From Streptomyces sp. WZ-12 (GTDB taxonomy: Bacteria > Actinomycetota > Actinomycetes > Streptomycetales > Streptomycetaceae), in contig NZ_CP118574.1 in assembly GCF_028898845.1 (NCBI RefSeq), positions 1,364,001-1,428,000 of the forward strand: DNA of 64,000 bases, in the 5' to 3' direction. How positions within the stretch are numbered: the first letter of the stretch is position 1; every line of letters starts with the position of its first letter. Below, piece after piece: positions 8,618-21,366 of this stretch. The notes below the pieces were generated by a model. That model saw nothing but the letters and a program-made list of their open reading frames with translations, did no database searches and was not told the origin of the DNA. A program made the position numbers and the translations under genes.

Positions 8618-9213
8618 TGGATCTTAAAACTTGGGAGTCGCGAGATGTTGTTGATGCCCAGAGCCTGAAGGAGGCCCTTACGGCACCGTATGACGCCATC
8701 CGCAACATGCCTCGATTCCATCAGACTGGCATGAATGATTTCGCCACCCTGTTTGGCCCGAAAATGGCAGTGGTGGATTTCAAGGAATCAGGCTTTGTTC
8801 AGCATGATGGCTGGACTCGACACAAGGTCGAAACAGGGGATAATCCGAATGGTACCGCTTTCCGCGTGCCCATGACTGGCATGTATTACATATTCTCTGA
8901 GATTTTCCTGCGCGCCGATAGCGATAGTGACGCTGGGCGCCATTGGTGGATGTATATCGAGAAGCGCACTAGCCCCGGCGATGAAGATTCCTCCATTCAC
9001 CTGGCATCGGGAATTGTCCAGAGCGAGGTCAAGAAATACCACATGTCGAATTCCGCAAACTGCATAGCCTTCCTTGAGGAGGGTGACTACATTTGCGCCG
9101 CCATCTATTCTGGCTACGTTTGGCAGAATCCTATCCAGGATCGGGACATTGCTAGCCGGATGGGCGCCTACTTGATTGCCCCAGGCGAGGCTAGCGATGG
9201 GAATGAGCTTTAG
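8617..9213 (+). CDS. Tail protein with a single C1q-like domain
   Basis: 198-aa protein starting within the preceding stop (TAATG). Its N-terminus (DLKTWESRDVVDAQSLKEALTAPYDAIRNMPRFH) matches the layout of the preceding protein's N-terminus. It then has one jelly-roll module (about 65-190) with TAFRVPMTGMYYIFSEI. It appears to be a shorter paralogue of the gene before it, probably from duplication of a receptor-binding module. Confidence 0.65.
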   Translation: MDLKTWESRDVVDAQSLKEALTAPYDAIRNMPRFHQTGMNDFATLFGPKMAVVDFKESGFVQHDGWTRHKVETGDNPNGTAFRVPMTGMYYIFSEIFLRADSDSDAGRHWWMYIEKRTSPGDEDSSIHLASGIVQSEVKKYHMSNSANCIAFLEEGDYICAAIYSGYVWQNPIQDRDIASRMGAYLIAPGEASDGNEL

Positions 9214-9215
9214 CT

Positions 9216-9470
9216 ATGGATCATCTTGTTTCATCTATTGAGGTACTAGTACCGGTGCTTTCGGCCCTGGTGCTGGGTCTGCGGAAGTACAGGAGCGATG
9301 TGGTGAACACGCTTCGCCAGGAATGCCAAGAATGGCAGGACCGATCTACCGCGCTCAGCGAGGAACTGAAGGAACTACGCGATGAGGTGATTGAACTCCG
9401 CAAGGAGAACTATTCACTTCGCGCCTACCTCGCTTCGCGGCTCGGTGAGGAGGTTGGGAAGGTTGATTAG
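9216..9470 (+). CDS. Small protein with N-terminal hydrophobic segment and coiled coil
   Basis: 84-aa protein. Residues 5-22 are hydrophobic (SIEVLVPVLSALVLGL). Residues about 28-75 form a strong heptad-like coiled coil (ELKELRDEVIELRKENYSL). It starts two bases after the previous stop. The layout suits a membrane-tethered lysis accessory or spanin-like protein. Function is unassigned. Confidence 0.55.
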   Translation: MDHLVSSIEVLVPVLSALVLGLRKYRSDVVNTLRQECQEWQDRSTALSEELKELRDEVIELRKENYSLRAYLASRLGEEVGKVD

Positions 9471-9474
9471 CACT

Positions 9475-9756
9475 ATGACTGCTGTAGCCCTGTACGGCCT
9501 GATGGCCGCTTTCTGTTTCGGCCTGGTGGTGCAGCATCGCAAGCACCAGGAGACGCCCGTGCTGGCCCGACTGGGGCGGCCTATCGATGAGGATGTGTTC
9601 TGCCTCTGGCTGGCCGTGTATCTCGCACTGAGGGCTGTCGCCCGCGGCCTGTGGGCCCTGCCGGCGCTAGACGTACCCCTGACCATCGCGGCGAACCTGG
9701 TGCTCGCCCTGGTCCTCGTCGCACGGCTCCGGTTTGAGCCGAAGCCCGCCAAGTAA
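9475..9756 (+). CDS. Small membrane protein, possible holin or lysis accessory
   Basis: 93-aa protein with about three membrane segments (residues 2-20, 46-66 and 70-87), a short basic region between them and a basic C-terminal tail. The start chosen is ATG 9475, 5 bases after the previous stop; the longer frame from 9391 overlaps the upstream gene. It precedes a terminator and the endolysin gene. Holin function is inferred from size, topology and position only. Confidence 0.5.
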   Translation: MTAVALYGLMAAFCFGLVVQHRKHQETPVLARLGRPIDEDVFCLWLAVYLALRAVARGLWALPALDVPLTIAANLVLALVLVARLRFEPKPAK

Positions 9757-9774
9757 GCAACTACACCGTATGCC

Positions 9775-9798
9775 GCCCGGCTGCTGCCGGGCTTTTTT
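9775..9798 (+). terminator. Rho-independent terminator after the tail operon
   Basis: A 7-bp perfect GC stem (GCCCGGC/GCCGGGC) with a 4-base loop is followed by six T residues. It separates the tail operon from the endolysin gene. Confidence 0.9.
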
Positions 9799-9821
9799 CA
9801 TGCCCGGACACAGGAGGAAAG

Positions 9822-11078
9822 ATGTCTCAGGCACTTGATTTCATCAATAGCGCTAAGGCTCAGGTCGGCTACCGAGAGGGTGCCAACAACTGGAACAAGT
9901 ATGGCCAGTGGTATCGGGACAACAATGAGCCGTGGTGTGCCCAGTTCGTGAGCTGGAACGCCAATGAGGCTGGCATTCTCAACACTAAGGTCCCGAAGTA
10001 CGAGGGCTGTTCCGCGGGAGTGGCCTGGTACCGAAACAAGGGCCGGTTCACTGACTACCCGGTCGTTGGCGGCCCGGTCTTCTACGGCTCCGGTGGCGGT
10101 AGCCACACGGGCATATGCGTTGCATATTCCTCTTCGACCATCACGACCATCGAGGGGAATACCAATACCGACGGTTCAGCCGAGGGTAACGGCGTCTACC
10201 TCAAGACTCGCTCTCGTCAGTCCAGCTACGTGTATGGCTATGGCATTCCGGACTTTGACGAAGGCACCGTTCTGGCTGACCCTTCCTACAAGGGCAAGGC
10301 AGGTTACATCTACTTCGGGGAGGAAGCTTCGACTTCCGACGTCCCGAACAAGCCGACACCTAAGCCGACTCCAGGGAAGGTGACGATCAACGGATCCGTG
10401 TACGGCCCTGGAACTCAAGGCGATCACATTCAGTACATGGCGGATTGTCTCTGGAAGGCCGGCTGCTGGAAGGGCCCCAAGGATGCGCACGCTTGGGGCG
10501 ATGGGCATACCGAGTCGATGCGGGCCTATCAGATCGCCATCGGCGACGCCGACTCGGCGGATGGTGTGCCGGGCCTGAAGCAGCTGACACGACTTGAGAC
10601 GGAGCACGGCCAGGGCCTGTGGCCCATCCAGAAGCCGGCTCCGCCTAAGCCTGACCCTTCGCCTAAGCCGGACGGCAACACGATCCCTAAGACTGTGTGG
10701 CTGAGTAACCCGTCCCCTTCCAAGGTCAAGGCCAATACGTGGACGACTGTCGATGTCACTGGCAAGGGAGACGGGACGGTCATCCATTCCAATGGTGACT
10801 GCAAGTTCTCGTCCAATGTGAAGATTGCTTTCGCCGATGTCCCGGCCGGCGCCACTGTCCAGGGCCGCTTTCTCAAGTTCACCAACGATGGCGACAGTGA
10901 CGGCGGCTATGCAGTGGTCGAGCGTGTCGCTACCGGCGACTTCTCGTTTGTGGACTTCTCCGCAATGGGCCACATGAACACTGACCGTCGCCTGGTGTGT
11001 CAGGTTGCCGTGTTCGGCAAGGACGACCAGGAGTTCACGATTAGCGGCCGTACGGCCGAAGCTCTCTACTGGGACTAG
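9822..11078 (+). CDS. CHAP-domain endolysin
   Basis: 418-aa endolysin with a strong AGGAGGAAAG ribosome site. Residues about 10-135 form a CHAP domain: Cys39 in EPWCAQF, His95 in GSHTGI and Glu111/Asn113 in IEGNT are the expected catalytic set. This predicts an amidase or endopeptidase that cuts host peptidoglycan at lysis. A Pro/Lys-rich linker (about 178-188) leads to a peptidoglycan-binding-like domain (about 190-265), then a second Pro-rich linker and a C-terminal beta domain (about 290-418), perhaps a further wall-binding module. There is no signal peptide, so release should need a holin. Confidence 0.92.
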   Translation: MSQALDFINSAKAQVGYREGANNWNKYGQWYRDNNEPWCAQFVSWNANEAGILNTKVPKYEGCSAGVAWYRNKGRFTDYPVVGGPVFYGSGGGSHTGICVAYSSSTITTIEGNTNTDGSAEGNGVYLKTRSRQSSYVYGYGIPDFDEGTVLADPSYKGKAGYIYFGEEASTSDVPNKPTPKPTPGKVTINGSVYGPGTQGDHIQYMADCLWKAGCWKGPKDAHAWGDGHTESMRAYQIAIGDADSADGVPGLKQLTRLETEHGQGLWPIQKPAPPKPDPSPKPDGNTIPKTVWLSNPSPSKVKANTWTTVDVTGKGDGTVIHSNGDCKFSSNVKIAFADVPAGATVQGRFLKFTNDGDSDGGYAVVERVATGDFSFVDFSAMGHMNTDRRLVCQVAVFGKDDQEFTISGRTAEALYWD

Positions 11079-11086
11079 CGATAGAC

Positions 11087-11347
11087 ATGAATGCTCTGAT
11101 TGACTTCCTGAAGAAGAACCCTGTCCGCATCAAGGCGGCACTTGTTTCCGTGCTGGCCTTGTTCTCTGACTTCATCAGTCCGGACCTTCAGGGGAAGATT
11201 GTTTCCCTGGCGATGCTGGCCGTGTCCATCCTGGGTGGCGAGATCGCTCAACGGGTGGAGAACAAGAAGACCAACGATGCCCGACTCTCTGACATCCCCG
11301 TCGAGTCTGCTGGCATCTCGCATGTTTCGGATGCGCCTATCGCTTGA
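11087..11347 (+). CDS. Holin-like small membrane protein
   Basis: 86-aa protein starting 8 bases after the endolysin stop. It has a basic N-terminus, hydrophobic segments at about residues 15-30 and 38-54 (IVSLAMLAVSILGG), and a polar tail. Size and position next to the endolysin suggest a holin that opens the membrane for it. Start ATG 11087 has only a weak ribosome site (AGCGATAGAC). Confidence 0.65.
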   Translation: MNALIDFLKKNPVRIKAALVSVLALFSDFISPDLQGKIVSLAMLAVSILGGEIAQRVENKKTNDARLSDIPVESAGISHVSDAPIA

Positions 11348-11374
11348 GGCAGTGTCCGAGTTTGAGAAAAGAAA

Positions 11375-11412
11375 CCCCCCGGCTTCCCTGAGTGGAGGCC
11401 GGGGGCTCTTTT
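11375..11412 (+). terminator. Rho-independent terminator after the lysis genes
   Basis: A 12-bp stem (one wobble pair; CCCCCGGCTTCC paired with GGAGGCCGGGGG) with a 6-base loop is followed by CTCTTTT. It ends the late operon. Confidence 0.92.
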
Positions 11413-11430
11413 GCATTGAGGGCTCGAACC

Positions 11431-11460
11431 AACCTAACTAACCGTCATACAGAGAGTGAC
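11431..11460. repeat. Copy 1 of the AACCTAACTAACC prophage element
   Basis: The 13-mer AACCTAACTAACC is followed 12 bases later by GTGACGG. Further copies lie at 18252, 25601 and 26485, all in intergenic DNA. Read on the minus strand it offers a promoter-like TCACTC, 17 bases, TAGGTT. It may be a promoter, or a site for the phage repressor. Confidence 0.55.
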
Positions 11461-11464
11461 GGCC

Positions 11465-11508
11465 TGGCCATGACCTGCCTGCACTCCCCAACTCCGTGGC
11501 CATGACCT
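11465..11508. repeat. Direct repeat TGGCCATGACCT, two copies
   Basis: TGGCCATGACCT occurs at 11465-11476 and 11497-11508, 32 bases apart start to start (three helical turns), immediately before the gene at 11520. The spacing suits cooperative binding of a regulator. No regulator can be named. Confidence 0.45.
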
Positions 11509-11519
11509 AGATTTCAGCC

Positions 11520-12056
11520 ATGATCCCTACGGCCGACACAATCCGCTTCACGTTGCTGCACCCGCAGACCTTGAGCCGCCAGGAGTCGGTAGTCCTCGCC
11601 GGCCTGCGCATCGACTTCACCACCGAACCCCAGACCCGAGAGACCATCCTCGCCCGCGCTGAAGCCCGCGGCGTCGAGCATGGCGGGTTCCCTGACGAGT
11701 ACCCCGACGAGTGGCAAACGCTCCGGATCCACATACAGGACATCCCGAGCGCCAAGTCCCTGTCTCTGGCTTCACGGATACGGGCTGCCAGCAGCAGCGG
11801 TCACTCCATGGTCGAGGCGTGGTCGCCGGCTGCACCCGGCTCCGGGCAGTGGCAGCACACCACGTTCCCGTGGGTCTACTGGGAAGGGCTCGGAGCCACG
11901 TGTTCCGTCGGCGTGGACGACATCAGTGTGTGGGGATACCTCTTCTCCGAACCCTGGGGTACCCACGCGAAGTTGCCCGCCCGCAGCAACGCTGCTGACG
12001 CGCCATGGGTCACCGTGAACACGGACACACCCCCATCCAGTTGCGGGAAGAGCTAG
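11520..12056 (+). CDS. Hypothetical protein, convergent with the RiPP operon
   Basis: 178-aa protein of no family I recognise. Codon use is high-GC and looks coding. There is no signal peptide or membrane segment; it contains several Trp residues (TTFPWVYWEGLG, DDISVWGYLFSEPW) in the C-terminal half. Its stop overlaps the stop of the oxygenase gene on the other strand by 4 bases. It lies between the lysis block and the RiPP operon and is probably part of the same cargo region. No clear ribosome site precedes the ATG. Confidence 0.55.
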   Translation: MIPTADTIRFTLLHPQTLSRQESVVLAGLRIDFTTEPQTRETILARAEARGVEHGGFPDEYPDEWQTLRIHIQDIPSAKSLSLASRIRAASSSGHSMVEAWSPAAPGSGQWQHTTFPWVYWEGLGATCSVGVDDISVWGYLFSEPWGTHAKLPARSNAADAPWVTVNTDTPPSSCGKS

Positions 12057-12772
12057 ACCAATGTGGGAAGGACTCTGCGCGGCCACCGGCCAAGCCAGAA
12101 GGCCGCCGCCGAAGGAAGAGGAGCCCCATCGGTCGATCCATCGTGGGGGAGGTATTCGGTCGGCGCTAGGTAGCCCTCACCAGGGGCGAGCCGTATTCGG
12201 ACGATGCGGAACGAGCGCCCGCTGGCGACATACGCCCGGTAGTCATCTGTGTGTGGGTAGCGGTGCGCATATGCGGTGGGGTAGATGGCTCGGCACGTTG
12301 CCTGTGCGTCGATGTCGCCGAGAATGATGTACCGGGTTCCAGGGCCGAGATTGAGGCACAGCCGACGGCGTCCCGTGTGCTTGTCGGCAAACCTCAGCTT
12401 GTCCCAGTTATCCAGGTGCAGCCCGATCAGCCGGCCATCCTGGTAGTTGTTGGTGGTCGTGGCCATGCCTGGCTCGGCAAGCGCCTGACCGAGGTATACC
12501 GCGTCAGCATCGCCTAGAGGCTGGGCAAGCTCTTCCAGCGGTAGCCCGTCCTGAAACGGCGGTCGAACGATCTCCACCACGGTGCTGTCTAACGTCTGGC
12601 GAGGCGCTGTGATGGACGTGACCTCTGCCTGAGTCAGGGAGCGCCATGCGCCGGAGGGCACTACCGCTCCAGTCTCGTACGCACCTTCGTCGCGACGTGC
12701 GGTCCTGACTGTGGCGATCTCGCACCGGGAACGAAGCGCGGCTTCATCGTCATAGACGATGTGCAGGGGCAT
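12053..12772 (-). CDS. Fe(II)/2-oxoglutarate-type oxygenase of the cyclophane RiPP operon
   Basis: 239-aa protein. Start ATG 12772 has an excellent AGGAGG site; a longer frame from 12802 would overlap the upstream stop. H119-x-D121 (in GLHLDNWD) and a later His210 (LPHDG), with a cupin-like region between (RRRLCLNLGPGTRYIILGD), fit the 2-His-1-carboxylate facial triad of 2OG-Fe(II) oxygenases. In related actinobacterial cyclophane clusters a 2OG oxygenase (named YhhC in NCBI families, from memory) accompanies maturase and precursor, and this gene matches that layout. Hydroxylation of the peptide core is inferred. Last gene of the operon. Confidence 0.7.
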   Translation of the reverse strand: MPLHIVYDDEAALRSRCEIATVRTARRDEGAYETGAVVPSGAWRSLTQAEVTSITAPRQTLDSTVVEIVRPPFQDGLPLEELAQPLGDADAVYLGQALAEPGMATTTNNYQDGRLIGLHLDNWDKLRFADKHTGRRRLCLNLGPGTRYIILGDIDAQATCRAIYPTAYAHRYPHTDDYRAYVASGRSFRIVRIRLAPGEGYLAPTEYLPHDGSTDGAPLPSAAAFWLGRWPRRVLPTLV

Positions 12773-12788
12773 GCGGGCCCTCCTGGTA

Positions 12789-13463
12789 TCAGTCGTCTCC
12801 AAGGGTGATGTCCAGCTCGGCTACCAGCGCCTGCGCAAGGTCCGCCTCCTGGCCGGGATCGATACGAACCTTCTTGAGGTTCGCGAGGCCCCGGATGGTG
12901 GCGAGCGTGTTGCCGCGCAGGTCGGTGCCGCGGTAGCGGCCGGCCTCGAATTCGGTGAGCCTGAGTGTGCACTCGGAGAACACGACGTCGGTCAGGTCGC
13001 AATCAGTGAACGTGGCTTCGCTAAGGACACAGTTGACGAAGGCCACGGGGCCCGTGGCACGCACCTTCTCGAACGTGGCGAAATCGAGCTTGCAGCCCTC
13101 GACCAGGACATCGTCCAGTACCAGCCCGTCGAGCGCGGCGCCCATCAGCTTGCAGTCACGGAGGACCACGCGGGTCAGCTTGCTTTCACTCCAGCTGATC
13201 GTGCCGAGGTCGCTGCGAGTGATCTCCACGCCGTGCAGGTTCAGGGCCTCGAAGTGTGTCCGCTTTGAACGGACGCCGCTGATCCGGCCGGTGATGAGCT
13301 GAGTGTCGGTGATTTCGAGTGAGCGTAGGTCAGCGTCACTGTAGGCGAAGTCTTGGACCATGCCGCGCGGGTTGTCGAGGGTACCGACGTTGGACAGGTA
13401 CAGGCCCGGCTCATCGAGGCCGGGCAGAGTGAGCCTGACGCGGCCGAAGGTGAGGGTGTCCAT
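12789..13463 (-). CDS. Pentapeptide-repeat protein, possible self-immunity factor
   Basis: 224-aa protein with a ribosome site CAGGAG. Residues about 45-185 follow the pentapeptide-repeat pattern: hydrophobic Leu/Phe every five residues with small residues two before (ADLRS, FEALNLHG, SDLGT, FATFEKV, ATFTDCDLTDVVF). This folds into a right-handed beta helix. In the QnrB/McbG/AlbG families such proteins protect DNA gyrase. Here it lies between precursor and oxygenase in the RiPP operon, so an immunity role is plausible but unproven. A scaffolding role in maturation is the alternative. Confidence 0.75.
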   Translation of the reverse strand: MDTLTFGRVRLTLPGLDEPGLYLSNVGTLDNPRGMVQDFAYSDADLRSLEITDTQLITGRISGVRSKRTHFEALNLHGVEITRSDLGTISWSESKLTRVVLRDCKLMGAALDGLVLDDVLVEGCKLDFATFEKVRATGPVAFVNCVLSEATFTDCDLTDVVFSECTLRLTEFEAGRYRGTDLRGNTLATIRGLANLKKVRIDPGQEADLAQALVAELDITLGDD

Positions 13464-13525
13464 GGTGCTCCTGGTTCGAGACGGGCGGGGCAAGCCGCCA
13501 TGATGCAGCTTGCCCCATCGCGCTA

Positions 13526-13732
13526 CTACTTCTTGTTCCAGTTGTCCCATGTGGAGCGGTTGTCGAAGGTGTTACCCGCGTTGTCCCACGTGGGGCGGTT
13601 GTCGAACTTTGCCACCGGGTCGATCGGCGTATCTCCGATCAGATCACGGAACCCGGCGGCGGCGCTGAGGATCAGACCAACGGCCGTGGACGTGTTGGCT
13701 TCGCGGGAGATCAGTTCACTGGCTGCGGACAT
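13526..13732 (-). CDS. Cyclophane-type RiPP precursor peptide with repeated FDN/WDN core
   Basis: 68-aa peptide. Residues 1-41 are a leader with a hydrophobic helix-like stretch (TAVGLILSAAAGF). The C-terminal 26 residues hold five aromatic-x-polar tripeptides: F43-D-N, W49-D-N, F56-D-N, W62-D-N and W65-N-K. The nine-residue unit FDNR(P/S)TWDN occurs twice (43-51, 56-64) with four residues between. Radical SAM/SPASM enzymes of the triceptide class join the aromatic ring to the third residue of such motifs. Start ATG 13732 has AAGGAG 9 bases upstream and overlaps the end of the maturase gene by 17 bases. The likely core starts after about residue 41. Confidence 0.85.
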   Translation of the reverse strand: MSAASELISREANTSTAVGLILSAAAGFRDLIGDTPIDPVAKFDNRPTWDNAGNTFDNRSTWDNWNKK

Positions 13733-14828
13733 GTCGTGTGACTCCTTCCAGGAGAGCGATCTTTGCCGTTGTGCAGTATCGAGTGCGGGTGCCATCCATA
13801 CGGCCCCCGTGCTCGAAGTACCGGTTCGCAGGGTGCGCGCCGCCGCAGAACGCGAAGTACCCGCAGGTGTTGCGGCAGGCGTCTACGCCATCCCGGAACT
13901 CGGTGATCCAGGGGGTTCGGGTGTCGGCCTCACTCATGAGGACGTCCAGGCCGTCACGGAGGACGTTGCCGGTGGTGAAGTCGCCGAACCGCTCGTCGGT
14001 GAAGCCGGCCAGTTCGGGTGAGAGCAGAACCACGCCGCCGTCAACGCTGACAGTGGGCAATGGGTCCCACAGTGCCGACACCGGGTCAGGCTGGGGCTGT
14101 TGAGTGCTGAGGACGGTGCTGGCGAAGTTCAGCACGCGCGATATCTCTCGTAGGCGGACTACCGGATTGGCGCTCCATGCGTCCGTGAGGGCGGCCCAGA
14201 AGTCTGCTGTCCTTGCAGGGTCGGTTGCGTGCACGCCGCGGTTGACGCCCTCTTCCTCTTCGACGTTCACGCCGAGGGTGGTAACACCCAGTTCGGCGAA
14301 GAACTCGTAGAAGCTGGCGGCCGTTCCGGGGTCAGGGTCGGAGACAACTGCGATGGCGGAGAACGGGATCCCGTGCCGACGTAATCGTTGGATCCCTCGC
14401 ATGATCACGCGGAACGCGGGGTGACCGGCACGAGTGACACGGTGGTGGTTCATGTCCTCCGGACCGTCGATGCTGACGCCCACATGCACGTTGTGCTCCA
14501 GCAGGTAGCCGCACCAGGCGTCATCGACGAGGGCCGCGTTCGTCTGCACACTGTGCTTCACGCCTTCGAAGGGGGCCATCAGTCTGGCCAGATGATCGCG
14601 GCCGGCGGACAGTGGCTCGCCGCCGTGCCACACGACTTCGAACGCGGGATCGTCGGCGGCCCACTTGTTGACCGACTTCGCCACAGCCTGTGCCACGGGG
14701 ACCGGCATCAGGTTCTTGACCTTGCGGAACGGCAGGTAGCAGTACGTACAGTCCATGGGCAGGCACTGTGTGGTTGGCTGCATGATCACAGCGTGCGGAA
14801 CGGTCGCGAGCTGTACGGGTTTGCGCAT
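13716..14828 (-). CDS. Radical SAM/SPASM cyclophane-forming peptide maturase
   Basis: 370-aa enzyme. Start ATG 14828 follows GAGAGGAG. The radical SAM cluster is ligated by C22, C27 and C30 in QCLPMDCTYCYLP, giving CX4CX2C rather than the usual CX3CX2C; translation of the DNA confirms the spacing. VVWHGGEPL (GGEP motif) follows. The C-terminus has SPASM-type cysteines C318, C322, C328 and C352 (CRNTCGYFAFCGGAHPANRYFEHG). This layout is that of FxsB/YhhB-like peptide maturases that form three-residue cyclophanes between aromatic and Asn/Asp/Lys side chains. It is first gene of the operon and its end encodes the ribosome site of the precursor gene. Confidence 0.88.
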   Translation of the reverse strand: MRKPVQLATVPHAVIMQPTTQCLPMDCTYCYLPFRKVKNLMPVPVAQAVAKSVNKWAADDPAFEVVWHGGEPLSAGRDHLARLMAPFEGVKHSVQTNAALVDDAWCGYLLEHNVHVGVSIDGPEDMNHHRVTRAGHPAFRVIMRGIQRLRRHGIPFSAIAVVSDPDPGTAASFYEFFAELGVTTLGVNVEEEEGVNRGVHATDPARTADFWAALTDAWSANPVVRLREISRVLNFASTVLSTQQPQPDPVSALWDPLPTVSVDGGVVLLSPELAGFTDERFGDFTTGNVLRDGLDVLMSEADTRTPWITEFRDGVDACRNTCGYFAFCGGAHPANRYFEHGGRMDGTRTRYCTTAKIALLEGVTRHVRSQ

Positions 14829-14868
14829 CGTGCTCCTCTCGATTGGGTTCGAGTGGTGCATGGGTGGC

Positions 14869-14901
14869 GCTGAGGATCACGTACAGTACGTGATCCTCAG
14901 C
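14869..14901. promoter_or_regulatory. Perfect 33-bp palindrome upstream of the RiPP operon
   Basis: Arms of 16 bases flank a single central A. The left arm reads GCTGAGGATCACGTAC and the right arm is its exact complement. It lies 41 bases before the maturase start and would overlap any promoter of the operon. Its length and perfection suggest a dimeric regulator site. An attenuating hairpin in the leader RNA is the alternative; no T-run follows on the minus strand. Confidence 0.75.
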
Positions 14902-14998
14902 ACCTCTTCCGCCCCCTGCCGAGACTCATCGAAATCGGGGGAACCACGAAGGCCAGTTGGCAGGGACTGGAGTCTGATGTCGTCCTGGCGGCGCCTGC

Positions 14999-15349
14999 TT
15001 AGGTGATGTTCGACAGGAGCACCATCACACCAGCCCACAGGCCGAGCACCACCAGGCCCACGAAGGCCGCGGCCAGGGTCAGGCCGACCATGATGACGTT
15101 GTCCTCGCGTTGCTGCTTCTCTCGCTCCTCCACGGCCTGTTGGTGTGCTTCAGCGTTGCAGCCGGCGCATCCTGTGATCTCGTGCTCTAAGTGATCGCTC
15201 AGACCATCACCGTCCTTGGTAGCACTGGGTGGTAGCCCGCCCCGACCAACCGAGCGTGTCAGGAAGGCAGGGGCGGGAACTTGTGGCGGGCCGCCCGGTC
15301 CCCGACCAAGGCCGAGCGACCCGCTTCGCACTCTCCCGTCTCGGCGCAT
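14999..15349 (-). CDS. Small single-pass membrane protein, start uncertain
   Basis: Up to 116 aa if started at ATG 15349. The convincing part is the last about 67 residues: a Cys-containing polar segment (DHLEHEITGCAGCNAEAHQQ), a charged helix (EEREKQQRED) and one membrane helix (VGLTLAAAFVGLVVLGLWAGVMVLL). The upstream half looks like GC-rich non-coding DNA, but no ATG or GTG lies in frame nearer. A rare TTA codon (15188-15190) would make it bldA-dependent in Streptomyces. It lies upstream of the RiPP operon on the same strand. Function is unknown. Confidence 0.4.
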   Translation of the reverse strand: MRRDGRVRSGSLGLGRGPGGPPQVPAPAFLTRSVGRGGLPPSATKDGDGLSDHLEHEITGCAGCNAEAHQQAVEEREKQQREDNVIMVGLTLAAAFVGLVVLGLWAGVMVLLSNIT

Positions 15350-15524
15350 ACGCGGGGAACCGGAGACGGAGTGCGCCCGGCCCATCGCTAGCCGGGGACT
15401 GTGACCCGCCCCCTGATGATGAGTGTCACCTCGGGGGATCAGGGAGCGGGAGTTCATTGGAGAGAGGTCTAGTGGTTCTCTGTCTCCCAGAGGGCGGCGA
15501 AGAGAAGTCCGATGCTGGAACAGA

Positions 15525-15851
15525 TCAGGAGGACGAATAACGGTCCTGCGAACCTGAGGACCTGGTCCCTTGTCCACCTGAGCAGCCATCGGCATAACTC
15601 GAAGAGGCATCCGGCGTTAGAGCCCACTTCGCCTCCAGGACATCGCAAAGCTTGTTGGTGGTTGCGACGTTGACTCGACCGAAGTGGACGGTGGGCCGGG
15701 TGCCTTCCTCGTCCACGTAGAGGGTGCGGAACTTGATTCCGAACCTCTCCAGCACGTCACGGAGGCGAAGACATGCCTTACTCGCGTCCTCGAACGTCAC
15801 GCCGTCAAGCTCAACGGGAACCTTGGGAAGTGGGGGCGGCGTGAAGGTCAT
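15525..15851 (-). CDS. Hypothetical protein (third of a three-gene overlap set)
   Basis: 108-aa protein. Start ATG 15851 overlaps the stop of the 35-aa gene (ATGA). Residues about 8-85 look folded (ELDGVTFEDASKACLRLRDVLERFGIKFRTLYVDEEG); the last 20 residues are Ser/Gly-rich. No family recognised. Confidence 0.6.
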   Translation of the reverse strand: MTFTPPPLPKVPVELDGVTFEDASKACLRLRDVLERFGIKFRTLYVDEEGTRPTVHFGRVNVATTNKLCDVLEAKWALTPDASSSYADGCSGGQGTRSSGSQDRYSSS

Positions 15852-15955
15852 CCCCGCCTCACCTTCTGGCCCATCTGCTCCGAGGCCCGCTTGTCCTTCG
15901 ACTTCTTCTCGCACTCCTTGAGCTTCTTACTCAGGTCTTCAGTCGTCCCGCTCAT
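15848..15955 (-). CDS. 35-aa charged peptide gene
   Basis: 35-aa, strongly basic and helical peptide (LSKKLKECEKKSKDKRASEQMG) with one Cys. GAGGAG lies upstream and the gene overlaps both neighbours (TGATG and ATGA), which supports it being real. Function unknown. Confidence 0.55.
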   Translation of the reverse strand: MSGTTEDLSKKLKECEKKSKDKRASEQMGQKVRRG

Positions 15956-16365
15956 CACTCCTCCTCACCTGCATCAAGGGCATTGGCGAGTCGTCGCGCG
16001 TTGGTGATCGAGAGCGAAGGCGGAAGTACTTTGTTCGCCGTACGACCCTTCACCGTGCCCACGATGACCAATGAGGGTGAAGTGCGGATGCTGATCCCGA
16101 GTAGAGCCGCATCCAGCTCCTTGGCAGCGACGCGTGCAAGGGGCTCCCTGGATCGGGTGACGCGACCGCCGATGGAGAGGGTCAGCCGCTGCGTCTCCTC
16201 CAACGTCAGTGCCGTGAGGCGGACTCGCGAGACCTTGACGCCTTCGACGACGCCGCTCGACACGATGGACTCAGCACTGACCTCGGCCCGACGCAGCCCG
16301 GCGTCCAGCCGCCCTCGTACCTCTTCGGCGGCTTGGTGTGGTGTCCTCACCGACACGTCGGGCAT
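15955..16365 (-). CDS. Hypothetical protein heading a three-gene operon
   Basis: 136-aa protein with GAGGAG 12 bases before ATG 16365. An alpha-helical N-terminus (HQAAEEVRGRLDAGLRRAEVSAESI) is followed by a beta-rich region. No family recognised. It is divergent from the XRE-TPR regulator; the shared 181-base gap holds the TTGCACAG repeats and GCTTAGTTAACGGC, a partial reverse match to the prophage element. Confidence 0.6.
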   Translation of the reverse strand: MPDVSVRTPHQAAEEVRGRLDAGLRRAEVSAESIVSSGVVEGVKVSRVRLTALTLEETQRLTLSIGGRVTRSREPLARVAAKELDAALLGISIRTSPSLVIVGTVKGRTANKVLPPSLSITNARRLANALDAGEEE

Positions 16366-16462
16366 GGCGGATCACTCCTCAACGACGTTGCAGCGTTGAC
16401 TGCTTGGGGGTTCACGTGACTAGCTGCCTACGCTTAGTTAACGGCCATTCGAGGGACCGAAC

Positions 16463-16481
16463 TTGCACAGAAGTTGCACAG
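16463..16481. promoter_or_regulatory. Tandem TTGCACAG operator candidate
   Basis: TTGCACAG is repeated at 16463-16470 and 16474-16481, an 11-base period that puts both copies on the same DNA face. They lie 66 bases before the regulator start at 16547. A site for autoregulation is a reasonable guess. Confidence 0.5.
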
Positions 16482-16546
16482 TGGGGGTGCGCCCCGGAGC
16501 GGGCCCTTGGGAGGATGGAGACACCCACTGCACCGAAGGGGATCAG

Positions 16547-17713
16547 ATGACCCATGTGGAACGCACACCAGGACCGGGCAGGAACGTTGCGACCCTCCGC
16601 AAGGAGCGAGGTCTGAGCCAGGCTCAGCTAGCGCGCATGGCCGGGGTCTCGCTGTCGATGCTGAGCAAAATCGAGGTGGGCGACCGGCCTCTGACTCAGG
16701 GCATGGGGGCCGCCCTGGCGAACGCTATGGGCATCACCCTGGATGAAGTCCTCGGTAAGGCTCCGGTCACGAGCGAAGACAACCTCAAGGAGCTTCGCTC
16801 CGCCATGCGCCGCTTCGACCTTCCGGGGGAACCTCCCGTCGAAGCGGAAGCCCTGAAACTGGACCTCGCGAGGCTCACCAAGCACCGGTTTAACACTGAG
16901 CTGTCGGAAGTCCTGTCAATGCTTCCCGGGCTCACCAGCCGAGTCACGAACTACGCGCACGCAGCCGGCACACCGGAAGCCTGGGCGATGGTTGCGGACA
17001 CCTACAGCACGATCTATTGGGTTGCCGCCCGGCACAGGTGGCTCGATCTGGCCGAACTGGCCTCGGTCAAGCAGGTACTCGCCGCCGAGAGGGCAACCAC
17101 CCTGGTTCAGGTTGTGGCCGCCAGGGATCACGCCGGAATGTTCCTGAACGGCGGCGACTTCGCTGGGGGCCTGGCCGTCGTAGAGCGGGCCATCGTCAAG
17201 GCCGAGTCCACTCTCACCGGCCGGGAAAGGGCGTTCGGCCTAGGAACTTTGCACCTTCGGGGGCTCACCTTGGCTGGCCGGCTCAGGGACAAGGCGGAGG
17301 CTGACAAGCACATCGAACGAGCCGAGCGGCTGGCCGGCGAGTTTCAGAGCGATGTGGTCAAACACGAAATGCACTTTGGCCCCCAAAACGCTGCCGTTCA
17401 CATCATCTCGACGTCCGGGGACCTCCGTAGGCATAGCAAGGCACTTCAGGTCTCCAACGATCTTCAGCGGCAAGAGATCAACCTGCCCGCCACAAGGGTC
17501 GGGCCGATGCACCTGGACACGGCAAGGGCGCGGCTCGCTCTCGGAGACAGGGATGGAGCCTTGGACTCCCTGGAATCAGCATGGGCGGTTGCTCCCCAGT
17601 TGGCGAAGGTTCACCCCACGAGCCAGGAGCTTTTTCGGGTGTTGATCTCGCTGCACAAAAGGAGCAATCCGCGGTTGAACCAGATTGCCAAGAGGGCCAA
17701 GGTTTCCATCTAG
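16547..17713 (+). CDS. XRE-family regulator with C-terminal TPR-like domain
   Basis: 388-aa protein. Start ATG 16547 follows GAAGGGG. Residues about 12-70 form an XRE/Cro-C1 helix-turn-helix (LRKERGLSQAQLARMAGVSLSMLSKIEVGDRPLT). The remaining about 300 residues are alpha-helical with TPR-like features (AVVERAIVKAESTLTGRERAFGLGTLHLRG). This design is common among Streptomyces regulators of specialised metabolism and development, and is not that of a typical small phage repressor. It is the nearest regulator to the RiPP operon and may bind the palindrome at 14869. That link is inferred. Confidence 0.85.
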   Translation: MTHVERTPGPGRNVATLRKERGLSQAQLARMAGVSLSMLSKIEVGDRPLTQGMGAALANAMGITLDEVLGKAPVTSEDNLKELRSAMRRFDLPGEPPVEAEALKLDLARLTKHRFNTELSEVLSMLPGLTSRVTNYAHAAGTPEAWAMVADTYSTIYWVAARHRWLDLAELASVKQVLAAERATTLVQVVAARDHAGMFLNGGDFAGGLAVVERAIVKAESTLTGRERAFGLGTLHLRGLTLAGRLRDKAEADKHIERAERLAGEFQSDVVKHEMHFGPQNAAVHIISTSGDLRRHSKALQVSNDLQRQEINLPATRVGPMHLDTARARLALGDRDGALDSLESAWAVAPQLAKVHPTSQELFRVLISLHKRSNPRLNQIAKRAKVSI

Positions 17714-17752
17714 GGTCTGACCGCCTGACCTGCCCCTCCCCGCAACAACAAG

Positions 17753-17779
17753 AAAGCCCCCGTATCAGCCGGGGGCTTT
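17753..17779. terminator. Terminator between convergent genes
   Basis: AAAGCCCCC pairs with GGGGGCTTT across a 9-base loop. The A-rich and T-rich flanks suit both directions: the XRE-TPR gene from the left and the gene at 17842-18180 from the right. Confidence 0.88.
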
Positions 17780-17791
17780 CCCTGTAATCCA

Positions 17792-17812
17792 CTGCTAGGA
17801 CAGTCCTAGCAG
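17792..17812. promoter_or_regulatory. 21-bp palindrome (CTGCTAGGAC-A-complement)
   Basis: Arms of 10 bases flank a central A, the same design as the 33-bp palindrome at 14869 (both have an AC-A-GT centre). It lies between the terminator and the stop of the minus gene at 17842. It could be a second site for the same regulator or simply a hairpin after the minus-strand gene. Confidence 0.45.
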
Positions 17813-17841
17813 GCAGCACCTTACACCCGCCGGCGCTTGGT

Positions 17842-18180
17842 TCATGACAAGATCTCCGGCCCTGCCACGCAGGCGTACTCACCGGTGCCCGCGTCGCGAC
17901 GGTACCGTGCACGCGTGACGCGATGCCCGTTCTCTGCCTTGCCCAGGATCCGGAACCACTCGGGGGCCGAGGGCAGCCCGTCAGGCTTCTCGCACTCCTG
18001 GTAGACGTAGGCCGTTCGCTTCCCTAGGGCTTCGGTTGCCATCTCCGCTTCGCGGATGGTGTGCATGCTGGCAACTTCGATGATGCGCTCATACCCGACA
18101 CCAGGGTTAGGCCAGACATGCCAGTCTTTGCCGTTCTCACTGATCTCGACTTCGAGTAGTAGCTTTTTTCCTCGGATCAT
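17842..18180 (-). CDS. Hypothetical prophage protein
   Basis: 112-aa soluble protein beginning MIRGKKLLLEVEISENGKDWHVWPNPG. It is beta-rich at the N-terminus, then has one helix (ASMHTIREAEMATEALGKRTAYVY). No family recognised. No clear ribosome site precedes the ATG, so it may be leaderless or start elsewhere. Copy 2 of the AACCTAACTAACC element, about 70 bases upstream, would be its promoter. Confidence 0.6.
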   Translation of the reverse strand: MIRGKKLLLEVEISENGKDWHVWPNPGVGYERIIEVASMHTIREAEMATEALGKRTAYVYQECEKPDGLPSAPEWFRILGKAENGHRVTRARYRRDAGTGEYACVAGPEILS

Positions 18181-18251
18181 GGGATTCGCAATCCCACATT
18201 CGCACTCTAGTCAAACCTTACCGGCTTTATTTGCACACTTTGAGCCTAACG

Positions 18252-18281
18252 AACTTAACTAACCGCTAGACGGAAAGTGAT
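18252..18281. repeat. Copy 2 of the AACCTAACTAACC element (one mismatch)
   Basis: AACTTAACTAACC is followed after exactly 12 bases by GTGATGC, aligning with copy 1. Minus-strand reading gives TCACTT, 17 bases, TAAGTT, upstream of the gene at 17842-18180. Confidence 0.55.
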
Positions 18282-18329
18282 GCATTGATTGCGCTACTCT
18301 CAGTAGCGTTTGTGGGCAAATAAAAAAGA

Positions 18330-18351
18330 GCCCCCGGCGTGTGCCGGGGGC
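18330..18351 (-). terminator. Terminator after the lipoprotein gene
   Basis: GCCCCCGGC pairs with GCCGGGGGC around a GTGT loop. Six A residues on the left serve as the U-run for minus-strand transcripts. Confidence 0.88.
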
Positions 18352-18360
18352 ATCCTTTTG

Positions 18361-18846
18361 TTAGTCCCAAGACTTGGTGCGGTCAACCTTGGTGATCTTC
18401 CACGTGTAGTGGGTGGATTCCTTGAGTTCTTCCGCCGATGACGTCTTGCCGATGACCGTCTGTCCGGGCTTCACGTCGTTCTTAAAGTCGCTGAAGTCTG
18501 CGACTCGGTTACCGGAAGGATCGTCTACTTCGCCGTCAATCTCGTAGTTAGAACGCTTGGAGCTGTGGTTGACGAGCTTGTACTCGATCTTGTCGAACCC
18601 CTGACCTTCGTAGGGCTCGTCAATCTTCGCCGAGGTGAGCGTCACGTCCTTGCGCGGGTCGCTCACCGTGTTGTCCGAGCCGGTTACGACGTCATCGTTG
18701 GTGGTGCTGCCCGACTTGGCACCGGCCCCGGTGTGGCTGGTGCCGGCCGCATGCTCCGCCGTCGAGAGGCTGCCGCATGCGCCGACGGCACCGAGCACGA
18801 CAACTCCGGCGACAACACCGAGCAGGCTCTTCAAGGGCGACTTCAT
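18361..18846 (-). CDS. Prophage-encoded lipoprotein
   Basis: 161-aa protein with a lipoprotein signal peptide: basic start MKSPLK, a hydrophobic core and lipobox VGAC with Cys24. A Ser/Thr/Gly-rich linker follows, then a beta-sandwich-like domain (about 65-158; DVTLTSAKIDEPYEGQGFDKIEYKLVNHS) resembling DUF4352/FxLYD-type domains. Surface lipoproteins of prophages are often lysogenic-conversion factors, for instance blocking superinfection. That role is an inference from context here. It follows a small HTH gene by 30 bases. Confidence 0.75.
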   Translation of the reverse strand: MKSPLKSLLGVVAGVVVLGAVGACGSLSTAEHAAGTSHTGAGAKSGSTTNDDVVTGSDNTVSDPRKDVTLTSAKIDEPYEGQGFDKIEYKLVNHSSKRSNYEIDGEVDDPSGNRVADFSDFKNDVKPGQTVIGKTSSAEELKESTHYTWKITKVDRTKSWD

Positions 18847-18876
18847 TTTCTTGTCTCTTCTACTTGTTGTGGATGC

Positions 18877-19056
18877 CTATGCCGCGTCCGCGGGCTGGCC
18901 TTTTTCTTTAGCTTCGAGTCCTGCGAGGATCCAAAACACGTTGGATGTGGAGAGCCCGACTTGCTTGCCGATTTCGGCAGCCGTCATATCCAGATCCCTA
19001 TGCATCTTGGCTATCACTCCAGGGTTAATAACCCTGCCATGCTCCCACTTGTCCAT
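18877..19056 (-). CDS. Small helix-turn-helix protein
   Basis: 59-aa protein. Start ATG 19056 has AGAAGGAAAAT; longer frames from 19104 and 19131 lack as good a site. Most of it is one HTH unit (NPGVIAKMHRDLDMTAAEIGKQVGLSTSNVFWILAGLEA) of the kind in MarR/AsnC-like or phage Cro-like proteins. It could be a second phage regulator. Confidence 0.65.
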   Translation of the reverse strand: MDKWEHGRVINPGVIAKMHRDLDMTAAEIGKQVGLSTSNVFWILAGLEAKEKGQPADAA

Positions 19057-19130
19057 ATTTTCCTTCTCAGACCTATTGAGCCGCGTGTCATGAACAGTAA
19101 ACATCCTTTGGACTTGCTCGCTGCACAGCA

Positions 19131-19154
19131 AAGGTCCCGACGCCGCGGGACCTT
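19131..19154. promoter_or_regulatory. Inverted repeat AAGGTCCC/GGGACCTT
   Basis: Two 8-base arms with an 8-base loop lie 75 bases upstream of the small HTH gene. On the minus strand the hairpin is followed by TTGCTG. It may be an operator for the HTH protein or a weak terminator. Confidence 0.45.
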
Positions 19155-19236
19155 CGTCATGTGCTGCCTTTATTTAATTTTCACTGGTCGTTCCCATGAC
19201 AAGTCACGGGAGCCGAGAACAGCGACCAAAAGAAAA

Positions 19237-19261
19237 GACCCCCAAGGATTCCTTGGGGGTC
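19237..19261 (-). terminator. Terminator after the Lsr2-like gene
   Basis: An 11-bp perfect stem (GACCCCCAAGG with its complement) around a 3-base loop, with an A-rich left flank supplying the U-run on the minus strand. Confidence 0.9.
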
Positions 19262-19275
19262 ATTCCTGCATCTGG

Positions 19276-19653
19276 TTATGAGTGAGCCTTGTCGTAAGCC
19301 TCTTCGATCTCAGTGGGGACACGACCACGGTCGGAGACCTCGTATCCCGCTTCCTTGGCCCATGCCCGGATCTGGGCAAGCTTCATGGTCCGGTCCGGGC
19401 TCGTGCCGGCCGTCCGCTTCGTAGGCCGAGCAACGAAGGAGGGAGCCGGGGCCTCCACTACCCTCTCCACACCAGCCTCAGACAGCGCGTCCAGGAGGTC
19501 ATCGCGAGACTTCTCGTAGGCCGTCAGCTTGGTAGAGAACGCCTTACCAAGCTTCTCAAGGTTCTCCATAGCATCTTCAGCTACTTCACCCTTGTACTCC
19601 TTGCCATCAATGGTGATGGTTACAAGCTTCTTGACCTCGAACGGGCTAGACAT
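19276..19653 (-). CDS. Lsr2-family xenogeneic silencer encoded by the prophage
   Basis: 125-aa protein; start ATG 19653 with AAGGGAG 7 bases upstream. The C-terminal about 40 residues (MKLAQIRAWAKEAGYEVSDRGRVPTEIEEAY) are the Lsr2 DNA-binding domain, with the minor-groove RGR triad at about 109-111. The N-terminus (VTITIDGKEYKGEVAEDAMENLEKLGKAF) matches the beta-hairpin plus helix used for oligomerisation. Host Lsr2 silences AT-rich foreign DNA. A phage copy could silence its own AT-rich region or interfere with host Lsr2. It is monocistronic, with terminators on both sides. Confidence 0.88.
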   Translation of the reverse strand: MSSPFEVKKLVTITIDGKEYKGEVAEDAMENLEKLGKAFSTKLTAYEKSRDDLLDALSEAGVERVVEAPAPSFVARPTKRTAGTSPDRTMKLAQIRAWAKEAGYEVSDRGRVPTEIEEAYDKAHS

Positions 19654-19720
19654 GATGCGCTCCCTTCCCCTTGCTTCTCTATGTTCCTTGGACGCTAGCA
19701 TAGTTAGCGCACATAGCAAA

Positions 19721-19741
19721 AGCCAGTCCTTAGGACTGGCT
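19721..19741 (-). terminator. Terminator after the DUF3987-type gene
   Basis: A 9-bp perfect stem (AGCCAGTCC with its complement) around TTA. AAAA at 19717-19720 gives a short U-run for minus-strand transcripts. Confidence 0.8.
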
Positions 19742-19769
19742 ATCACTATCTGAGCTATCTGCGGGATGT

Positions 19770-21164
19770 TTAGTTCAACAAGTCGGCGAACTCGTTGTCA
19801 TCTTCGACCGACATAGTCACAGAGGCCACAGGAGTCTCACAGCCAATGGCCTTGAGTCGGGGCCCGGATGCCTGCTCAGGCACGGATGCCGTCGGCTCCT
19901 CGCCGGCCTCACCCATCTCTTCCGCGGTCATGAGCCGGAACATGGTCGGCTTGCGGCCACCGCTGAGACTGCCCAGGCCCCGCCACATGTCGATGTCGTC
20001 GCGCTTCTCCGCCCATGCCTTGGTGTACCGCGCGGGCACGCCAGTCAGCTTGAAGATGTCCGTGCCGGTGATGCCCCCAGGGTTACGGCGGAGAACCTTG
20101 AGGATCTTGTCCTCCTCCGTCTCCCCGCTCACCATGTCGGCGCCTTCGCCCATGATGTGGGCGACCGAGTCAAGGCCGTGCCGCACGAAGCTCCACGCGG
20201 CCTCGATGTCCGCCACGCTGATCTCGTCCCGCAGGTTGATGAGTGCGTAGATGGCGCCGACGCGCCACACGTTCTCTACCGCGCGAGGAAGGAAGTCCTC
20301 GATGTACTCGTCTTCGCAGCGGTACTCGTCGATCTCGTCCCGCAGGCCATCGTCGAAGAGATCGATGGCTTCCTCAGAGAGCGTGATCTCGTCAATGCCA
20401 CCAGTGAAGGCGACGGCCCGAGCGAGGATCGCTCCGGCTTCCTTGATGCTGTCCTCGTTGATGACGTGCCGCATGGACAGGCGCTTGGAGCGGGTCACGT
20501 GCTGAATGACCATGCGGTTGTAAGTTCCGCCCGCAACATCGGTCGCGCTGATGTTGTCCCGGAAACCTCGCGGGGTCGAGTGGCCGTGGACAACGAAGCG
20601 AGGGCTCCGCAGTACCCCACCATCGGCCACCATGTTTTGAAGGTCAGCGCCGTCCCATGCCTTACGCATGACACCTTGCAAGGTCGCGTCCCGCTTACCG
20701 CGCTTAATGACGGTCTCGTACTCGGCTTCCACCAGGAGCATGCGCGTGTCGGTGACGCTCAGGCCGGCGTACTCGCGGCCGTTCTCCTCGGCGTCCCGCA
20801 TGGCCGCAAGAGCACTCTCACGGCGCTTAACGAATGCCCGGATGATGCCGGACCCAGACGACGCACCAGACGACTCGTGGTCGGTCAGGAAGTCCGGGCA
20901 CGCCACGTTGCAGACCCGTGCAGCCATGCCATAGGCAGTACCTTTGCGCCCCTTACCCGTGGCACCAATGAGAAGCGTCCAGACACTGACGGGCATCTCT
21001 CGGCCGCCAATGTTCAGCATGACCTTATCCCCGACCATGCAAGAGACCTGAGATAGAAGGGCGGCCAGAACGCCGGCGGGGTCAGCTTCAGTCTCGGGCA
21101 TGACCAGGTCGAGGATTTCCCTAACCTTCCCGACGGTCATTCCCTCTACGGGATGCTCACTCAC
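19770..21164 (-). CDS. DUF3987-type ATPase, probable replication protein
   Basis: 464-aa protein. A P-loop-like GATGKGRKGT (residues 67-76) and an overall layout like DUF3987/YfjI proteins (SGASSGSGIIRAFVKRRE, then LLVEAEYETVIKRG, then HSTPRGFRDNI) suggest a RecA-fold ATPase of the kind found beside phage and plasmid primases. About 345-395 resembles a winged helix (KILKVLRRNPGGITGTDIFKLTGVPARY). It is probably the phage replicative helicase or initiator. Its start overlaps the upstream zinc-finger gene by 8 bases. Confidence 0.72.
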   Translation of the reverse strand: MSEHPVEGMTVGKVREILDLVMPETEADPAGVLAALLSQVSCMVGDKVMLNIGGREMPVSVWTLLIGATGKGRKGTAYGMAARVCNVACPDFLTDHESSGASSGSGIIRAFVKRRESALAAMRDAEENGREYAGLSVTDTRMLLVEAEYETVIKRGKRDATLQGVMRKAWDGADLQNMVADGGVLRSPRFVVHGHSTPRGFRDNISATDVAGGTYNRMVIQHVTRSKRLSMRHVINEDSIKEAGAILARAVAFTGGIDEITLSEEAIDLFDDGLRDEIDEYRCEDEYIEDFLPRAVENVWRVGAIYALINLRDEISVADIEAAWSFVRHGLDSVAHIMGEGADMVSGETEEDKILKVLRRNPGGITGTDIFKLTGVPARYTKAWAEKRDDIDMWRGLGSLSGGRKPTMFRLMTAEEMGEAGEEPTASVPEQASGPRLKAIGCETPVASVTMSVEDDNEFADLLN

Positions 21165-21366
21165 TCGGCAATTCCTTCCCCACCTCAGGCGCTTCTACTT
21201 CATTGGCGGACTCCGCAGAATCCGCCCCGAAGAGAATAGCATGCAGCTTGTCTGCATGTTCCTTGCAAAGGTCCGCACTCATGTTCCCTATCGATGCTTC
21301 CTCGGTAGCCACCTGATTCTTTCCCTTGCGGTGGCAGAGGTCGCAAACAGTCCAGCTAATAACCAT
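21157..21366 (-). CDS. Small zinc-binding protein
   Basis: 69-aa protein. Start ATG 21366 follows AAGGGTGATC. C-x2-C (VCDLCHRKG) and C-x3-H (LCKEHADKLH) form a likely zinc site. The C-terminus is acidic. Translationally coupled to the DUF3987 gene by overlap. Similar Cys patterns recur in the genes to the right. Confidence 0.6.
   Translation of the reverse strand: MVISWTVCDLCHRKGKNQVATEEASIGNMSADLCKEHADKLHAILFGADSAESANEVEAPEVGKELPSE

Follow-up and report, generated by a model that had tools for sequence, protein, structure and literature searches.

A Streptomyces prophage carrying an amc-type cassette predicted to make a cyclophane peptide

We analyzed a 64,000-nt stretch of DNA from Streptomyces sp. 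WZ-12 (NZ_CP118574.1, positions 1,364,001 to 1,428,000; hereafter the window, in whose numbering positions are given unless stated otherwise). It contains a four-gene minus-strand cluster at 12053–14828 that encodes a radical S-adenosylmethionine (SAM) maturase, its precursor peptide, a pentapeptide-repeat protein (PRP), and an oxygenase-like protein (OXY). An earlier note, made from the letters alone, had described the region as a prophage-borne operon for a cyclophane-type ribosomally synthesized and post-translationally modified peptide (RiPP); our analysis supports that interpretation, with the family of the maturase corrected to AmcB. The cluster and the open reading frame (ORF) that it converges on are as follows.

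13716–14828, minus strand: amcB, radical SAM/SPASM cyclophane maturase, 370 aa (NF041718; Pfam Radical_SAM)
13526–13732, minus strand: amcA, precursor peptide, 68 aa, core ...FDNRPTWDNAGNTFDNRSTWDNWNKK (NF041721; core aligned with 14 other precursors)
12789–13463, minus strand: PRP gene, 224 aa, likely immunity factor (Pfam Pentapeptide_4; AlphaFold2 model; structural matches including EfsQnr and AlbG; isoelectric point, pI, 4.7)
12053–12772, minus strand: OXY gene, 239 aa, oxygenase-like, predicted Fe(II)/2-oxoglutarate type of an unnamed family
11520–12056, plus strand: 178-aa ORF, no role assigned, convergent with the cluster

The amc cassette and its proteins

Gene order, strand, motifs, and overlaps, read directly from the sequence, match the earlier description. 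The amcB and amcA genes overlap by 17 nt, and the 3′ ends of the OXY gene and the convergent plus-strand ORF by 4 nt. All four reading frames are intact, a purine-rich sequence of the ribosome-binding type precedes each gene, and the GC content of the cassette (64%) lies between those of the remainder of the prophage and the chromosome. The shared strand and tight spacing suggest that the genes are co-transcribed, and it is in this sense that the term operon can be kept.

AmcB scored 443.9 bits against the curated NCBI model NF041718 (cut-off 425) and AmcA 72.2 bits against NF041721 (cut-off 40); with both cut-offs exceeded, the radical SAM maturase and its multi-motif precursor are a real pair and not a chance one. 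The next-best curated model for the maturase, GrrM/OscB, gave 228 of 310 bits. The earlier assignment to the FxsB/YhhB type did not hold, as FxsB reached only 69.4 of 370 bits and YhhB 94.5 of 445. Judged by these models, the maturase is a member of the AmcB family, which has been described before, and is AmcB/GrrM-like. AmcA carries the motifs FDN, WDN, FDN, WDN, and WNK, in this order, and its two-copy core (FDNRPTWDN, then FDNR.TWD.W) is kept across the 15 aligned precursors. AmcB contains a CX4CX2C motif (14739–14765) and a C-terminal CX3CX5C. In a tree built from 42 sequences of AmcB, the copy from this prophage fell within a supported Streptomyces clade (99/99, 16 rows); CX4CX2C was present in all 20 rows of the wider clade (support 100/99), and CX3CX2C in the remaining 22. 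Thus, the cassette resembles the known AmcA/AmcB multi-cyclophane RiPPs (triceptides) in passing both curated models and in its FDN/WDN motifs, but differs from them in being carried by a prophage and in having CX4CX2C for CX3CX2C, the latter a clade-wide trait. The passages of PMC11002830 that bear on the related enzymes OscB and XncB describe Phe-Asn and Trp-Asn rings; for the product of AmcB, the ring chemistry is predicted. In addition, a match of AmcB to phrog_27668, a phage protein family with no assigned function, spans most of the protein (148.8 bits), and AmcB-like proteins therefore occur in other phages or prophages.

PRP scored above the cut-offs of Pfam Pentapeptide_4 and Pentapeptide, and its AlphaFold2 model has a predicted local distance difference test (pLDDT) value of 89.8. 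A Foldseek search with this model returned a designed solenoid first, followed by AlbG and EfsQnr. The best TM-scores were 0.74/0.79 for EfsQnr and 0.65/0.74 for AlbG, with other AlbG chains down to 0.50/0.57; those for MfpA and QnrB1 were mostly lower, and HetL, which has an immunity role, gave 0.28/0.27. The protein is acidic, as are all 26 aligned members (pI 4.6–5.3). AlbG and Qnr shield DNA gyrase, folds related to PRP protect topoisomerases, and the structure titles of EfsQnr, AlbG, and MfpA connect these relatives with gyrase or topoisomerase. The likeness lies in the fold, whereas sequence identity to PRP is about 20%. As PRP scores below the curated Qnr and MfpA cut-offs (values below), we do not file it as a member of the Qnr, MfpA, or AlbG families, although it possibly works like one. 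Because PRP is present wherever an AmcA-type precursor is found (see below) and related folds protect topoisomerases, we read it as a likely immunity factor; its fold, its acidity, and its association with the precursor make immunity the most economical role.

The HxD...H triad of OXY (H119, D121, and H210) is invariant in 24 of 24 aligned sequences and would bind a metal. A structure search found 2-oxoglutarate-type neighbors with a modest fold match, which together with the invariant triad suggests an Fe(II)/2-oxoglutarate enzyme. The 2-oxoglutarate type proposed earlier thus stands as a prediction, and the family is unnamed. Hydroxylation of the peptide by OXY is plausible on the strength of fold and motif. 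A protein search with OXY gave 405 matches; among the best 120, all that bear a name are, as far as the names show, hypothetical or uncharacterized proteins. Relatives outside Streptomyces made up 11 of 100 relatives and 4 of 29 genera.

Prophage setting and cargo junction

For the prophage analysis, the sequence was extended leftward beyond the window by 32 kb. PHROGs matches were obtained for integrase, DNA polymerase, thymidylate synthase, ribonucleotide reductase, terminase, portal, capsid, major tail, tape measure, and endolysin proteins. Two copies of a palindromic core of 13 bp, CTTCTGGTAGAAG, one at G000:C1:1334824 and the other at 1390742 (G000 is the window's own genome), delimit a prophage of about 55.9 kb. 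The prophage splits in frame a ligD-type polymerase gene, whose parts lie at window 26742–26942 and G000:C1:1334029–1334836; when the flanks were joined, a single open frame above the ligD_pol cut-off resulted (252.4 vs. 214.7). The phage genes, the att core, and the restored frame bear out the prophage setting claimed for the cassette, which lies 12–15 kb inward from the right end. By its att sites and its integrase, packaging, head, tail, and lysis genes, the element is a complete-looking prophage, and ligD-pol is a notable attachment gene for actinophages. The features around the cassette and at the prophage ends are as follows.

G000:C1:1334932–1336089: integrase (PHROGs)
9822–11078, plus strand: endolysin (phrog_9589)
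11087–11347, plus strand: holin-like membrane protein, 86 aa, no family match, named from position and size as in the phages Ponzi and Success
11376–11405, plus strand: terminator-like hairpin after the lysis genes (hairpin scan)
11427–11459, plus strand: 33-nt repeat, left copy, cargo edge
14866–14904: inverted repeat directly upstream of amcB, 19-nt arms 95% complementary, 1-nt spacer
14999–15133, 15525–15851, 15848–15955, and 15955–16365, minus strand: small ORFs between the regulator and amcB (gene calls), no role assigned
16547–17713, plus strand: XRE-TPR regulator, divergent from the cluster (Pfam HTH_3; phrog_5823 over nearly the full length)
17842–18180, minus strand: 112-aa ORF inside the right cargo edge, no PHROGs match
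18248–18280, plus strand: 33-nt repeat, right copy, 79% identical, cargo edge
18330–18351, minus strand: terminator-like hairpin ending the rightward minus-strand genes (hairpin scan)
26742–26754: attR core CTTCTGGTAGAAG, right prophage end (the left end lies outside the window)

About 7 kb separates the end of the holin-like gene (11347) from the first minus-strand gene past the right hairpin (18361). This interval was compared with the same junction in relatives. In the closest isolated phages by portal, Success (61.8%) and Ponzi (54.0%), the minus-strand genes, including one for an Lsr2-like protein, begin about 80 bp past the last lysis-side membrane gene. Among eight related prophage regions, the junction is visible in five; in each of these, the gene that follows the holin-like gene on the opposite strand is less than 0.4 kb away. 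The other three are uninformative; the two phages and five regions thus make seven informative relatives. The amc proteins matched nothing in the ten stretches compared (Success, Ponzi, and the eight regions), and an amc gene or multi-kb insert at the lysis junction was found in 0 of the 7. The first opposite-strand genes differ among the relatives, which shows that the junction varies even where it has received no insert. On this comparison of sequences, we regard it as certain that the cassette is cargo and not part of the phage backbone.

Terminator-like hairpins flank the cargo on both sides (the scan gave 7 sites in the stretch vs. 4.2 expected), with a copy of the 33-nt repeat just inside each. 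Two further, weaker copies lie at 25601 and 26485, near attR. The repeat motif, like AACCTAACTAACC, has one orientation at all four sites, and a similar site is found at the lysis junction of another prophage (L096, 13891). We first read these repeats as insertion scars, but they could equally be a dispersed phage operator.

The regulator noted earlier as XRE-TPR is supported by its HTH_3 and phrog_5823 matches; its tetratricopeptide repeat (TPR) part is our assumption from regulators of this kind, as the Pfam scan matched no TPR model. Pfam gave no match for the small ORFs at 15955–16365 and 15525–15851. The inverted repeat upstream of amcB falls within a region of low folding energy (z −4.6 over 14829–14960) and is possibly an operator or a leader hairpin; an exact search for its half-site in 132 loci, two of which are the window's own place, gave no occurrence in the others. 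Rfam gave no match within 9000–27000, and a promoter scan of 11300–18500 found none. Outside the prophage, chromosomal genes at 36468–48577 resemble, by eye only, NiFe hydrogenase subunits and maturation proteins.

Distribution of the cassette and comparison with known systems

Searches with the cassette proteins pointed to a second phage context in Streptomyces yunnanensis. There, an OXY homologue (96% identical, MOV08_05315, among the best 120 of the 405 matches) lies three tags from an endolysin homologue (71% identical, MOV08_05300). The single homologue of the 178-aa ORF, which in the window sits between the endolysin and OXY genes, is 99% identical and apparently also from S. yunnanensis. 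These three genes are most simply explained by a sister prophage whose endolysin has diverged and whose cargo is near-identical; we consider such a prophage very likely and presume that it also holds amcB, amcA, and PRP. The search for the cassette in related prophages, proposed earlier as a check, thus gave none in the seven informative relatives and this one very likely case.

We then surveyed the genus. AmcB scored above the cut-off in 27 of 392 genomes. Among 48 loci obtained by tblastn, an AmcA-like precursor was found in 29, the same 29 all had PRP, and 25 of them had OXY (a weak 28% OXY match in L064 was left out of the count, and at least one pair of loci, L056 and L075, seems to represent a single region). 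Apart from that weak match, none of the three partners was found by tblastn at the other 19 loci. Beyond the four genes, neighbors are little shared, the largest other clusters covering 7 of 29 loci, in a comparison whose gene caller recovered amcB in 26, PRP in 26, OXY in 23, and amcA in 22 of the 29. Among the genes common to these neighborhoods, none was conspicuous as encoding an exporter or a leader protease. When the phage cassette was compared with two chromosomal ones, the ratio of nonsynonymous to synonymous substitution rates (dN/dS) was 0.18–0.23 for amcB, PRP, and OXY, indicating divergence under constraint.

Among the 27 AmcB genomes, a portal search (E 1e-20) found a portal within 100 kb of the cassette on the same contig only in the window's own genome. 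A PF05065 capsid was near the cassette, 9 kb away, only in G083; this test is weak, as it misses the capsid of the present prophage and several genomes have fragmented contigs. We tried the G083 cassette as phage-borne and did not count it, as the capsid and a recombinase-like ORF lie beyond tad-like genes (by eye). Outside this prophage and its presumed sister, the cassette is chromosomal and sporadic in Streptomyces. Two chromosomal cassettes (L055 1779–7684 and L066 230–5652) share a block of three large unnamed ORFs and a ~160-aa ORF; five tested members of the block had no Pfam match, and it is possibly a mobile element.

A megablast search of window positions 1–25000 against phages found nothing, OXY had no match in phages, and tblastn with AmcB gave 18 phage records, all below 60% identity (highest 34.6%; best-covered about 24%). 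In viral contigs, AmcB, PRP, the regulator, and a nucleotide pattern encoding FDNR(x)TWDN gave no match in single-sequence queries, whose reach is limited to close relatives, and this search may leave out records that closely resemble the window's genome; the endolysin gave one short match of 29 residues. In plasmids, the best 12 of 114 records were GrrM-type and other radical SAM proteins at no more than 33.4% identity. A radical SAM gene was also seen near the baseplate genes of Thermus phage Cumys (L136 3998–5248), beside a DUF483 protein, with a match in Thermus phage phiMa.

Prophage-borne modified peptides are already established by sublancin 168 of prophage SPbeta, which, in the relevant part of PMC8270828, is both a weapon and a prophage-maintenance factor. 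Like the amc cluster, it combines a modified ribosomal peptide with an immunity gene on a prophage, but sublancin is glycosylated and has its own exporter and disulfide enzymes, whereas the present cassette is a radical SAM cyclophane system with no exporter. In a survey of actinobacterial prophages, 13 of 2112 carried any small biosynthetic cluster, peptide clusters in Streptomyces prophages among them; its relevant section names class I lanthipeptides and does not mention a cyclophane cluster (PMC10023795). No cyclophane RiPP in a phage or prophage was found among the titles and abstract starts listed by searches of an open-licence library. The claim that no comparable case was described in a Streptomyces prophage therefore needs narrowing: small clusters are reported there, and it is the cyclophane type that appears to be new.

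Proposed function and parallel cassettes

We propose, with a probability of roughly 55%, that this amc cluster is prophage cargo for a peptide with three-residue rings, likely hydroxylated, and that PRP likely protects the lysogen. By analogy with its family, AmcB would cross-link the first, aromatic position of each FDN/WDN motif with position three, with a loss of about 2 Da per ring, and OXY, to judge from its fold and motif, may then hydroxylate the cross-linked peptide. Like AlbG and Qnr, PRP would shield the target, for which DNA gyrase is the most likely candidate. The peptide might be released by the adjoining lysis genes or by general host export, which is a guess, and loss of the prophage would bring loss of protection. 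The proposed role is lysogenic conversion that gives the host a chemical weapon plus its own protection, and a benefit for the lysogen is plausible. The roles put forward in the earlier note, namely competition, lysogen maintenance, or host change, are likewise conjectural. Two observations weigh against this proposal: PRP stays far below the curated cut-offs for Qnr (30.6 of 240 bits) and MfpA (22.6 of 360 bits), and no exporter or leader protease stood out beside the cassette.

The second of these observations would fit a peptide that acts inside the lysogen, in defense or superinfection exclusion, in which case PRP would protect the host's enzyme from it; DNA enzymes of the phage type would be its natural targets. 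We hold this to be unlikely, though the best of the alternatives. PADLOC, run on nine proteins of the region (amcA not among them), returned nothing for PRP, OXY, or the 178-aa ORF, only weak viperin matches for AmcB (32.4 bits), and general helix-turn-helix matches for the regulator. The anti-phage HalA model touches PRP at just 20.2 of 250 bits, and chromosomal cassettes exist without a phage. Somewhat less probable again is that both PRP and OXY take part in biosynthesis or serve as scaffolds, and that the cluster yields a signal or morphogen, not a toxin. Such a role would suit the finding that the link of PRP to the precursor type is as tight as that of the maturase (29 of 29 loci), and the relevant part of PMC7476756 reports that the pentapeptide-repeat protein HetL acts with a peptide signal (HetL-PatS) in Nostoc. 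Against this, EfsQnr and AlbG align better to PRP than HetL does, and immunity to a signal would still count as an immunity role. That the cassette is a silent passenger from the chromosome, of no benefit to phage or host, is improbable: although the phage AmcB nests among chromosomal Streptomyces copies and the GC content is intermediate, the four intact frames with ribosome-binding-type sequences, a dN/dS of about 0.2 against chromosomal copies (though much of the divergence may predate capture), and the second, diverged phage-type context in S. yunnanensis speak against it.

A parallel arrangement was found in the Streptomyces phage PapayaSalad, in which the minus strand between the lysis genes and the regulator encodes an O-methyltransferase and a Gly/Ser/Asp-rich peptide of 48 aa; a tRNA and two small ORFs lie in the same stretch.

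L102 (PapayaSalad) 5653–6992; L149, L150, and L151; L131 9498–10834: unannotated pamtide-like pair (methyltransferase and a Gly-rich peptide of 47–70 aa)

At ≥90%, the pair was found in eight records of five Streptomyces phages, of which the four examined in detail are Austintatiousvirus; a related prophage, in G238, also bears it. The PapayaSalad methyltransferase missed the TIGR04188 cut-off (337.2 of 380). The dN/dS of the methyltransferase was 0.09–0.24 in 10 of 10 pairs of the five sequences tested, indicating purifying selection, and the peptide is nearly unchanged. In size, peptide make-up, and two-gene layout, the pair resembles the type I pamtides as given in the relevant part of PMC10787088, but its peptide is low in proline, unlike the type I average reported there; no word beginning with "phage" occurs in the main text of that paper. 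The chemistry is unrelated to that of the amc cluster, and only the equivalent genome place is in common. A 108-aa ORF at 15525 was tried as a relative of a small PapayaSalad protein and gave no alignment.

The XRE-TPR regulator matched proteins in three phages, at 52.3% in PapayaSalad and about 30% in Gilgamesh and VWB. It had no match, at E 1e-5, to the shorter regulators of Ididsumtinwong, Alderaan, and Austintatious, and the shared feature is therefore the place and not always the switch. It gave 46 matches in 39 genomes, from which 20 loci were taken, and the gene caller re-found the regulator in 17. A RiPP-type cassette lay within 6 kb on its divergent side at 3 of these 17 (L125, L127, and L131) and at none of the other 14; in L125, another regulator pair intervenes. 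At these three loci, the methyltransferase model TIGR04188 (279.8–344.1 of 380) and the ATP-grasp model TIGR04187 (308.6 of 350) stayed below their cut-offs, and a graspetide precursor model was exceeded (28 of 25). The idea of one regulator as the common switch of phage RiPP cassettes is thus only partly supported.

A broader proposal, which we put forward tentatively, is that temperate Streptomyces phages keep a slot between the lysis and the early/regulatory genes for swappable peptide-weapon cassettes, flanked by a divergent helix-turn-helix regulator, whose product would arm or addict the lysogen. The slot would hold a cyclophane peptide with a gyrase-shielding PRP in this prophage and its sister, and an isoaspartate-type pamtide in PapayaSalad and its kin.

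If the proposed function of the amc cluster is correct, radical SAM cyclophane chemistry would be one of the features that hosts acquire from phages, in association with a pentapeptide-repeat protein and with an oxygenase family that has no name. A system of just four small genes allows direct tests of how the rings form, whether the peptide is hydroxylated, what it targets, and what protects against it, and the lysis-side junction of actinophages would be a place to seek further such peptides.

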